Shown: piece by piece, positions 20,986 through 44,567 of the stretch
Numbering within the stretch: position 1 is the first letter of the stretch
Layout: each line of letters begins with the position of its first letter
NCBI GenBank assembly: GCA_021325675.1
Contig: JAJTCM010000002.1
Coordinates: 620,001-684,000, forward strand
Origin: Crocinitomicaceae bacterium
GTDB lineage: Bacteria; Bacteroidota; Bacteroidia; Flavobacteriales_D; Crocinitomicaceae
Length of the DNA stretch: 64,000 nt
Direction of reading: 5' to 3'
Program-made: the position numbers and the translations under genes
The notes under the pieces: generated by a model
Told to the model about the DNA's origin: nothing
The model's database searches: none
The model's input: only the letters and a program-made list of their open reading frames with translations

Positions 20986-21438
20986 ATGATCTTCGATCCG
21001 GAAAATAACATCAACCGTCTCTGCGCCGAAGGTATCGCTTTGGAAGGAAGTGATCTGCAGCAAGCGGCGGCTTTATACCTCCACGCCTGGAATGAAGCCC
21101 AGACAGAGACTGAAAAAGCCACCGCCGCACATTATCTGGCCAGGGTCCAGGACGATGTTGCCGGAAAACTGGATTGGGACCGGAAAGCATTGGATCATGG
21201 CTTGCAAATCGGCGAAACAGCAAAAACCGCATTTTTACCTTCACTCTATCTCAATGTTGCGAAAGGCCTGGAAGATTCCGGCGAAATCAGCGAAGCAAAG
21301 CTGCATTATGGGCTAGGACTGAAATACATTGGAACGCTGCCGGAAAATGGCTATGTACAGCTTATCAAAGGCGGTCTTCAGCGCGGCCTGGAAAGAACCG
21401 GCGAAAAACCGGGCTTCAGTCCTTCAGGAAATCCATGA
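20986..21438 (+). CDS. TPR-like helical protein of unknown function
   Basis: 150 residues, predicted all-alpha, with TPR-like pairs (A-A-A-L-Y-L-H-A-W-N-E-A, then A-K-L-H-Y-G-L-G-L-K-Y-I). Similar Bacteroidota proteins have, as I recall, been labelled 'rRNA adenine methyltransferase', but no SAM-binding motif (no G-x-G-x-G) is visible, so that label looks wrong. It starts 36 bp after the YceH gene and may belong to that operon. Its last 23 bases overlap the 3' end of the convergent DUF4143 ATPase gene. The tail (G-E-K-P-G-F-S-P-S-G-N-P) is read-through into that overlap and may not be conserved. Confidence 0.65.
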   Translation: MIFDPENNINRLCAEGIALEGSDLQQAAALYLHAWNEAQTETEKATAAHYLARVQDDVAGKLDWDRKALDHGLQIGETAKTAFLPSLYLNVAKGLEDSGEISEAKLHYGLGLKYIGTLPENGYVQLIKGGLQRGLERTGEKPGFSPSGNP

Positions 21439-22546
21439 AATTGAGCTGGCTGATCACCTCGCCTTTAGCCTGCGGGTAACTGTTCAGGAAAGCCGGGCTG
21501 ACGCGTTGGTTTTTGTTATTGTTCCATTTGATTTCAAAAGCCAGCAGCTCATCTTTGAAATGCTCCACGTAATCCACCTCGCTTTGGTTGTAATTCCTCC
21601 AGAAAAAGCTTTTGCGTTTTTCTTCCTGGTAAGCGTTTTTCTTAAGCCGTTCGCTGATCACGAAATTTTCCCACAGCTGACCGGTATCCTGGCGTAAAGG
21701 CAAAGGACGGAAATCATCAATTACGGCGTTGCGGATCCCGAGGTCCCAGAAATACACCTTGCTCATTTTCGAAATTTCCTTTCGCGGGTTGGTGCTGTAA
21801 GCCTTCAGACGGAAAATAACAAACGATTTTTCCAGCAAATCCAGGTAACTTTCCACCGTTTCGGATTTCACTTTTAAATTATTTGCCAGCTCGTGTACCG
21901 AAATTTCCTGCCCGACCTGGTAAGCCAGCATTTTGAGCAGATTTTCCAGTAATTCGGGTTTACGGATATTTTTCCAGATCAATACATCCTTGTATAGGTA
22001 CTGGTTCGCCAGGTTCCTGATGTTAAATTCCGCATCATCCCGGAAGTTACAAATATCGGGGTACATGCCATACAGCAAATGAAACGGGAGCTCATCCGCG
22101 GCCTGGAAAGAGTTTTTGCGCGGATAAAGCTCTGTCATGGAAAAAGGGTACAAATGAAAAAGCACATGCCTGCCCGTTAACGGCTCGAAAATTTTATCGG
22201 AAATTTCTAACGCTGATGATCCGGTAGCGATAAATTGCGTGTCTTTGAAATTATCCACGAGCAGCTTCAGCAATAAACCCGGGTTCGAAATCCGCTGAAC
22301 CTCATCGATAATAACGTATTTACTGCTGCCAACCAACGCTTTCAGGTTCGGCAGGTTCAGGTCTTCAAAAACGGTACGTACGCGGATTTCATCTGCATTC
22401 ATGAACTGTACGTCTTCGCCTTCTTTGAAAAAGTTCAGCAAAAGCGTCGTTTTTCCTACTTGCCGGGCGCCGGTCAAAACAATGGCCTTGCGCTTGTGAA
22501 ACCATTTTTTAAGCTTGATTTCCAAGGCTCTCTTTACCTGTTTCAT
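21416..22546 (-). CDS. AAA ATPase with DUF4143 domain
   Basis: 376-residue P-loop ATPase of the type found as solitary genes across Bacteroidota and other phyla. N-terminal AAA module: Walker A G-A-R-Q-V-G-K-T-T (about residues 21-29), Walker B Y-V-I-I-D-E-V-Q-R (about 77-85), sensor F-I-A-T-G-S-S-A. Then a winged-helix-like middle and the DUF4143 C-terminal domain, ending with the nuclease-like signature S-E-V-D-Y-V and F-E-I-K-W-N. The D/E-x-K arrangement of the PD-(D/E)xK fold is visible, but catalysis is unproven. Function unknown; stress, defence or accessory-element roles have been suggested for the group. Preceded by a 32-bp tandem repeat and a -7 box only 4 nt before its ATG. Confidence 0.88.
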   Translation of the reverse strand: MKQVKRALEIKLKKWFHKRKAIVLTGARQVGKTTLLLNFFKEGEDVQFMNADEIRVRTVFEDLNLPNLKALVGSSKYVIIDEVQRISNPGLLLKLLVDNFKDTQFIATGSSALEISDKIFEPLTGRHVLFHLYPFSMTELYPRKNSFQAADELPFHLLYGMYPDICNFRDDAEFNIRNLANQYLYKDVLIWKNIRKPELLENLLKMLAYQVGQEISVHELANNLKVKSETVESYLDLLEKSFVIFRLKAYSTNPRKEISKMSKVYFWDLGIRNAVIDDFRPLPLRQDTGQLWENFVISERLKKNAYQEEKRKSFFWRNYNQSEVDYVEHFKDELLAFEIKWNNNKNQRVSPAFLNSYPQAKGEVISQLNFMDFLKD

Positions 22547-22550
22547 ACCA

Positions 22551-22558
22551 CAAATGTA
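22551..22558 (-). promoter_or_regulatory. -7 element abutting the DUF4143 ATPase start
   Basis: TACATTTG on the minus strand, a perfect TAnnTTTG, four bases (TGGT) from the ATG. It suggests a leaderless mRNA. The -33 position falls inside repeat copy 1 and is not consensus. Confidence 0.45.
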
Positions 22559-22560
22559 TG

Positions 22561-22651
22561 AAAATTTCCAGTATAATGGAAAAATTACCCCTAAAATTTC
22601 CAGTACGATGGAAAAATTACCCCTAAAATTTCCGGTAGGATGGAAAAATTA
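22561..22651. repeat. 32-bp tandem repeat, 2.8 copies, upstream of the DUF4143 ATPase
   Basis: Copies at 22561-22592, 22593-22624 and 22625-22651. Each holds TTTCCA, six bases, TGGAAA; the third has TTTCCG. The six-base spacers differ (GTATAA, GTACGA, GTAGGA) while the arms and the AAAATT / AAATTACCCCT flanks are kept. A 32-bp period is about three helical turns, so the palindromes would lie on one DNA face. Confidence 0.85.
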
Positions 22652-44228: not shown

Positions 44229-44567
44229 ATGAAAAAATTCATGTTAACCGTTGCTTTGATCTTTGCAGGAATTACCCGGGCCAACGCACAAAAGGTGTAT
44301 TCCGTTGATGCAGACTACAAAGCTGACGTTAAAGTATATGTGGTGGACGCAGATTACAAAGCCGATTTGTTGGTTTACAAAGTTGATTCCGATTACAAGG
44401 CGGGAGAAAATGACGGGAAATGGTTTTTTACCGATGCAGATTACAAGGCCAAAAAGAAAATTTATTTTGTAGATGCGGATTACAAAGCTGACCTGAAAGT
44501 TTTCTTCGTAGATTCCGATTACAAAGCCGGGTGGAAAAATTCAGCTAAAAAAGCGGAAATGTACTAA
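44229..44567 (+). CDS. Secreted six-repeat DUF6150-type protein (septoil-knot-like)
   Basis: 112 residues: signal peptide (M-K-K-F-M-L-T-V-A, cleavage near A-N-A-Q), then six repeats of V-D-A/S-D-Y-K-A-D/G spaced about 13 residues apart. The fourth reads T-D-A-D-Y-K-A-K and is preceded by a short insert, E-N-D-G-K-W. From memory, this repeat pattern belongs to DUF6150, a family discussed as forming a 7_1 'septoil' knotted beta fold; treat that as recollection. The ligand or role is unknown. Nucleotide repeats are similar but not identical, so the protein repeat is maintained by selection or an old duplication. The protein ends with a Lys-rich tail. Monocistronic in appearance; DUF2235 gene follows 151 bp later. 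Confidence 0.8.
   Translation: MKKFMLTVALIFAGITRANAQKVYSVDADYKADVKVYVVDADYKADLLVYKVDSDYKAGENDGKWFFTDADYKAKKKIYFVDADYKADLKVFFVDSDYKAGWKNSAKKAEMY

Follow-up and report, generated by a model that had tools for sequence, protein, structure and literature searches.

In the window, that is, the whole 64,000-nucleotide stretch of Crocinitomicaceae DNA analysed here, three palindromes stand in series just before an ATPase gene, which raises the question of which protein reads them and with what effect on the gene. The first-pass annotation had described three TTTCCA-N6-TGGAAA palindromes at 32-bp steps, with the plus-strand spacers GTATAA, GTACGA and GTAGGA, and had placed them directly against a -7 box; the palindromes, their steps and the spacers are as described, with one mismatch in the left arm of the third, and the gap to the -7 box is 2 bp. 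On comparative sequence evidence, it is proposed, with a probability of about 0.8, that the array is the ATPase's own operator, in which dimers would bind the palindromes and occupancy would block the promoter, giving autorepression.

The palindrome array and the gene behind it

The putative operator array occupies 22561..22651 on the minus strand and consists of three 32-bp units, each with an 18-bp palindrome and a 14-bp linker, an assignment that draws on the sequence and on homologue upstream regions with the same architecture; it ends 14 bp upstream of the ATPase start codon. The proximal palindrome, TTTCCAGTATAATGGAAA (22565-22582), has its dyad 27 bp 5' of the ATG, over the promoter core, and the dyads of the middle palindrome, TTTCCAGTACGATGGAAA (22597-22614), and of the distal one, TTTCCGGTAGGATGGAAA (22629-22646), which carries the arm mismatch, lie 59 and 91 bp 5' of the ATG. 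Tandem Repeats Finder reports the array with period 32, 2.8 copies, 93% matches and a score of 154, the runner-up among its 19 rows for the window scoring 41. At lag 32 the array matches itself at 55 of 59 bases, against a maximum of 34 at any lag of 12-99 in 20 shuffles of the window. A CRISPR-like array was ruled out, since the linkers are nearly identical across units and the variable bases are few, central and within the palindrome. Over the same lags, the second strongest self-match of the window is a degenerate 39-bp periodicity at 44345-44490 (44/59 matches at lag 39).

In the source genome, TTTCCAGTANNATGGAAA with at most one mismatch is found at the three array palindromes only; the shorter TTTCCA-N6-TGGAAA, also with at most one mismatch, is found at 65 places, compared with 13 for the reversed control. 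Eight of these 65 places (L301-L308) were inspected, each lying inside at least one open frame of at least 100 codons, and from these eight loci we take the surplus to be codon usage.

The gene itself lies at 21416..22546 on the minus strand (ATG at 22546) and encodes a 376-aa AAA_14-DUF4143 ATPase, which we take to be COG1373-like. Its Pfam matches are DUF4143 (E 4.7e-41) and AAA_14 (E 9.4e-30), both above cut-off, and the PADLOC model PDLC04789 (PDC-S01, a defence candidate) matches residues 4-374 of 376 with E 2.9e-145. The AAA+ ATPase domain, residues 19-140 (22127..22492, minus strand), is defined by the AAA_14 match and by invariant residues: G26, R28, G31 and K32 of Walker A, D81 and E82, and T124, G125 and R126 are unchanged in 30/30 aligned homologues. 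The nuclease-like residues that had been suspected at the C-terminus were borne out, E323, D325, E338 and K340 being kept in all 30 aligned sequences; they form a PD-(D/E)XK-like motif at residues 323-340 (21527..21580, minus strand), presumably the pattern of a PD-(D/E)XK nuclease. Both the Walker A/B and the PD-(D/E)XK residues are intact in the window ATPase. An AlphaFold2 model built on a 30-row alignment (mean pLDDT 89.9) has an AAA+ domain, a middle part of helices and strands, and a C-terminal domain; in our reading, the predicted helices and strands after the AAA+ domain form a winged helix-turn-helix at residues ~197-266 (21749..21958, minus strand), with a predicted recognition helix at 228-240 and a wing at 244-249 and 262-266. 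A second, distant family member with 27% identity is present in the source genome (L081, G000:C6:84100-86000), and its upstream region is without a 32-bp array by eye.

Array architecture and promoter register in the gene family

Homologues are present in 145/200 family genomes (E <= 1e-20) and 71/199 order genomes (E <= 1e-30), in a patchy pattern. From this material, 4/190 genes of the first set were dropped as too short, with too little upstream sequence, or duplicate; a named-genome scan, from which the best 80 of 587 confirmed places were used and whose titles name Bacteroidota, Treponema, Chlorobiota, candidate phyla and others, gave a second set of 76 after removal of 3 duplicates and 1 locus too short or with too little upstream sequence. 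L183 (wrong start, 468 aa) was left out of alignments. In the 130 bp before the start codon of 146 homologues (distinct genes, best tblastn identity at least 36%), self-identity has a lone sharp peak at lag 32, with an excess of 0.141 +- 0.008, against 0.033 at lag 31, 0.044 at 33 and 0.036 at 64; the 304 control upstream regions of neighbouring ORFs have no peak at lag 32 (-0.013). The 20 homologues titled as non-Bacteroidota also peak there (0.091 +- 0.013, taxa taken from record titles), and the peak is absent in 40 genes of the distant subfamilies B and C (25-33% identity).

Gene by gene, the array score of 84/146 homologues exceeds the 99% quantile of the 304 controls (shuffles, 3/730), and with an independent likelihood caller 180/221 homologues exceed the 95% quantile of 120 controls and 41/221 fall under the threshold, both comparisons being made with longer sequences for the genes than for the controls (162 vs 150 bases for the first caller, 202 vs 150 for the likelihood caller). 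For the latter, the threshold is 32.4, the controls are the first 120 of the 304, with a maximum of 36.9, and 60 full-length shuffles have a median of 26.8 and a maximum of 33.8. Among the 129 callable genes, arrays of two copies occur in 23, three in 61, four in 33 and five in 12, where the caller stops at 5; three copies, or six half-sites, are thus the commonest number, and the called range across callers is 2 to 6.

An orthologue from another genus has three 32-bp-spaced palindromes with nearly the sequence of the window, and in more distant homologues the letters differ, the versions by subfamily including TTTCCA, TTTGGA, GCGATT, GGTGATT, GGTCATT and others. The proposal that DUF4143 homologues would share the upstream repeat thus holds for 32-bp palindrome arrays and fails for the literal TTTCCA-N6-TGGAAA as a general motif, this being one of many versions: the conserved feature of the array is its spacing and architecture, with the sequence changing. 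As for the concern that the repeat might be scattered over unrelated loci, the paired 32-bp pattern (at most three mismatches) was found in 14/200 family genomes, in 10 of them at ATPase orthologues, and the reversed control pattern in 3/200. The remaining four comprise one orphan array (G058) and three chance-like cases (G175, G051, G065); the latter, as well as second matches in G018 and G077, appear to be coincidental, and none adjoins a listed ATPase match. The orphan array of G058 is of the TTTCCA type and lies ~60 bp past the stop codon of another gene of the family (L318:1413-1462), with no further ATPase match within 1.5 kb beyond; it is possibly the remnant of a lost gene.

Meanwhile, the array keeps a fixed relation to the promoter. 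The -7 box of the window gene, TACATTTG (22551..22558, minus strand), is of the type TAnnTTTG, which we take to be the Bacteroidota-type -7 consensus, and starts 15 bp downstream of the proximal dyad. TAnnTTTG is present within the last 70 bp before the start in 119/129 callable homologues, compared with 51/304 controls, and in 81 of the 119 homologues having the box it begins 13-19 bp past a dyad, a register by which the palindrome covers the promoter core. The gene's own putative promoter, recognized as a consensus match, is overlapped by palindromic sites. In L050, L067, L181 and L187 the called dyad falls on the start codon and a half-site separates the -7 box from the ATG, which suggests a very short or absent leader in these genes.

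Other arrangements are seen in distant branches of the family. L109, L110, L115, L108 and L117, from a distant subfamily with 30-32% identity, have, before the ATPase ORF, direct repeats around ATTTCAAAAT with a period of 22-23 in place of the 32-bp palindromes, which may reflect a different mode of binding within the family. In a subfamily with 26-27% identity, L103 has a single long inverted repeat, CGCAAAATTCAATTGAATTTTGCG, shortly 5' of the start codon, and L101 has a less perfect one in the same position.

Coupling of half-site bases to predicted recognition-helix residues

If the ATPase reads the array, the letters of the half-site can be expected to change with residues of the protein. 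For each gene, the two arms of every copy were merged into a consensus half-site with no reference to the protein, and for each half-site position the alignment column sharing most information was determined, columns with more than 20% gaps being skipped. AT-rich DNA makes the calling of operators imperfect, and filters on score, copy number, centring and core A removed 77 to 92 of 221 genes, leaving 144 for the first caller and 129 for the second; related genes are non-independent, and weighting and pair contrasts were applied (the 144 genes have an effective number of 82).

In the first set of 93 genes, the top columns for positions -5, -6, -7 and -8 are 227, 229, 228 and 232, respectively. 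With all filtered genes, -6 couples to residue 229 with a z of 26.8, compared with 10.2 for the next column (second caller, 19.9 vs 10.1); -5 couples to residue 227 (14.5, next 12.2; second caller, 14.8 vs 10.7), and -7 to residue 228 (11.0, next 7.6; second caller, 12.5 vs 8.8), where n is 144 for the first caller and 129 for the second throughout. For -8, column 228 is top by excess information and not by z with the first caller (n=144), and it is top at 12.9 with the second; no helix column leads for -9, -3, -2 or -1 (n=144). To lessen the influence of kinship, disjoint nearest-neighbour (sister) pairs were compared, 70 for the first caller and 63 for the second, with 376 columns ranked. 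With the second caller, 229 ranks first for -6, 228 second for -7, behind 222, and 227 third for -5, behind 218 and 365; with the first caller, the ranks of 229, 228 and 227 are 7, 2 and 1, respectively. Columns 218 and 222 are in the helix preceding the recognition helix.

A look-up table from the first set was then applied to the half-site bases of other genes. For -6 from residue 229, 36/48 bases were predicted correctly with the first caller, against 2/48 for the training-majority guess and 29/51 for the test-majority guess, and 31/42 with the second, against 24/42 for the test majority. The values for -7 are 32/48 with the first caller (training majority 10/48, test majority 30/51) and 26/40 with the second (test majority 25/42), and those for -5 are 21/49 compared with 18/49 for a constant guess (first caller) and 21/42 compared with 15/42 (second). 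The coupling of -8 with residue 232 seen in the first set failed on held-out genes, with 18/38 for the table and 18/38 for a constant guess. The held-out genes thus show a clear improvement on a constant guess at -6 alone, with little or none over the test majority for -7.

The residue-base pairs over both sets are as follows: at -6, K229 goes with G (22/25), E229 with C (17/21), N229 with T (28/30) and H229 with G (6/6); at -5, D227 goes with G (65/76) and K227 with C (13/16); and at -7, K228 goes with G (39/47) and S228 with T (26/36). Residues 227-229, which were picked without structural input, fall where the predicted recognition helix (228-240) begins; in the window ATPase they are K227-S228-E229 (21860..21868, minus strand), the predicted specificity residues, whose columns are the top ones coupled to -5, -7 and -6. 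Because the half-site bases couple best to residues at this helix N-terminus, the array very probably consists of binding sites of the same ATPase, and the guess of the first-pass annotation that the ATPase itself binds there gains computational support from arm letters that covary with the protein's own recognition-helix residues.

Proposed mechanism, alternatives and related systems

We infer physical binding by dimers: AAA_14-DUF4143 dimers would attach to each palindrome via the winged helix that follows the ATPase domain and precedes the nuclease domain, with residue 227 predicted to read half-site position -5, residue 228 position -7 and residue 229 position -6. With at least two palindromes 32 bp, or about three turns, apart, the dimers would share one DNA face, which would allow cooperative binding. 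The gene-nearest dyad sits between the -33 and -7 elements, so its occupancy would be expected to block the promoter, and with the dyads in register with the -7 box, autorepression is the most likely outcome; position thus makes repression most likely over activation. The earlier suggestion of an autoregulatory operator is in this way supported by computation, the sign being inferred from promoter position. Autorepression would keep a potentially harmful ATPase-nuclease low, and release might follow a signal, e.g., phage infection.

Other readings of the array have to be weighed against this one. The ATPase might bind as an activator, or as activator and repressor in positive feedback; the distal palindromes, 59 and 91 bp 5' of the ATG, sit where activators can bind, and PMC5760070 describes IniR, with an AAA+ domain reported to be similar to SSO1545, as binding the iniBAC promoter and inducing it. 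We regard activation as unlikely, since both the placement of the proximal dyad, between the -33 and -7 elements, and the extra half-site that extends to the start codon in some homologues (e.g., L050, L181) speak for blocking. Somewhat less likely still is an assembly or parking platform, initiator-like or an effector site, on which an AAA+ oligomer would be loaded or held inactive, with secondary effects on transcription. The archaeal Cdc6/Orc1 origin complex and RuvB among the structural neighbours, the six half-sites of the commonest arrays (61/129) and the conserved ATPase and nuclease residues would suit a platform, but the callers assign 2 to 6 copies to an array and the register with the -7 box, needless for a pure platform, is kept.

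Binding of the array by a different regulator, with its gene elsewhere, is very improbable: some defence systems are indeed under separate repressors, such as RptR with its three promoter palindromes in the available text of PMC12255303, but the half-site letters follow the ATPase's own recognition-helix residues better than the other tested columns, and coupling to the ATPase's own helix argues against an outside protein. The reading to which we give the least credence, next to none, is a functionless, microsatellite-like tandem duplication. Slippage does give rise to tandem repeats; against this origin, period 32 persists while the letters diverge, the units form palindromes that keep register with the promoter and covary with the protein, and the array is conserved family-wide, with the paired pattern mostly at ATPase orthologues.

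The self-bound operator, as the preferred reading, can be compared with known systems. A Foldseek search with the ATPase model gave the archaeal AAA+ ATPase SSO1545 (2fna) at rank 1, followed in the next ranks by RuvB, Cdc6/Orc1 and, at rank 5, the archaeal AAA+ ATPase PABY2304 (2qen); SSO1545 and PABY2304 align over 362 and 352 columns with a TM-score of ~0.5 and 15-16% identity, and neither is among the 60 of 98 matches listed from a family-profile sequence search of the PDB. In both, a winged helix follows the AAA+ domain, and we know of no operator for either. Archaeal Cdc6/Orc1 proteins and iteron initiators combine AAA+ with a winged helix and bind repeats near their own gene; the resemblance to 2qby (Cdc6/Orc1 on origin DNA, rank 3) is structural, whereas the ATPase array has palindromes, not direct iterons, and the ATPase has a nuclease motif. 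Antitoxins and the DNA methyltransferases of restriction-modification systems bind their own promoter and so regulate themselves; they resemble the present case in that a protein of the system sits on its own promoter, which for the ATPase is suggested by covariation, and they differ in that here the protein would be an AAA+ ATPase with a PD-(D/E)XK motif acting on a tandem array, with a residue-base code particular to each subfamily. Antitoxin autoregulation is mentioned in the available part of PMC12255303. The same source describes RptR, a defence-island repressor acting on its own promoter, over which three repeats with palindromes extend; this series of three palindromes on an own promoter is the nearest arrangement found, but RptR is a separate repressor with 6-bp palindromes in 9-bp repeats, whereas in the ATPase array the spacing is 32 bp and the putative effector enzyme itself carries the predicted DNA-binding domain.

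The window ATPase is a full-length match to PDC-S01, an unvalidated PADLOC defence candidate. In the available part of PMC12988326 (2026), PDC-S01 consists of an ATPase domain joined to a member of the PD-(D/E)XK superfamily, is called the fourth most common defence across prokaryotes, with 29,494 counted in Bacteria and 9,986 in Archaea, and is among candidates of which most await validation; similarly, PDC-S01 is the most frequent individual locus in rumen genomes in the accessible part of PMC13356809. The former gives abundance, phylogeny and architecture, and its available text mentions no operator array, DNA-reading helix or autoregulation; regulation of PDC-S01 is likewise not mentioned in the accessible parts of either source. 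Among titles and opening lines of abstracts on AAA_14, PF13173, PF13635, DUF4143 or COG1373, none concerns the regulation of this gene, and no description of the array or of the residue-base code was found in the open-licence PubMed Central literature, bioRxiv being outside this scope. The case is thus probably a known kind of regulation, a self-bound operator, in a form for which no description was found, on a candidate defence gene that is among the most abundant of those still unexplained.

An enzyme reading its own promoter would, if true, offer a practical handle: the promoter could serve for reporters and gel shifts, and residues at which specificity might be switched are predicted member by member. 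In addition, the data set provides a natural residue-to-base code for a winged helix together with a collection of possibly orthogonal operators. A more far-reaching reading, which we hold to be doubtful, is that the array, besides being an operator, serves as the sensor in an immune switch made of one gene and that divergence of the code stops co-resident paralogues silencing each other. If true, the ATPase-nuclease would sit on its own 32-bp-phased palindromes until drawn to phage or damaged DNA, whereupon the promoter would be freed and the defence would amplify itself; through fast divergence of the three-residue code, the family would amount to a large, naturally occurring set of orthogonal operator-repressor pairs. 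In single genomes, 2/77 paralogue pairs share the 227-229 triplet, compared with 4.1 expected (P 0.21, not significant).

If the autorepression model holds, it would also show why genomes can harbour a potentially harmful ATPase-nuclease as one gene, patchily distributed and probably mobile. Homologues are found in 25 phage records, the best being an unverified faecal scaffold, and in 519 plasmid records, all with less than 60% identity, and the exact double palindrome in its TTTCCA version has 0 matches in viral contigs. A clear array lies upstream of a Treponema plasmid homologue; the one phage-labelled homologue inspected has three called copies with a poorly centred half-site, and a Bacteroides finegoldii plasmid homologue has a low score (5.9) and an upstream region without a convincing array. 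DUF1801, the neighbour of the ATPase, is present in 3/4 congeners, where none of the five other window proteins tested adjoins it within up to 1.5 kb on each side, so no empty site is readable there. In the window, the ATPase ORF and a convergent ORF (20986-21438) share 23 bp at their 3' ends (21416-21438), an overlap that may mark an insertion boundary.
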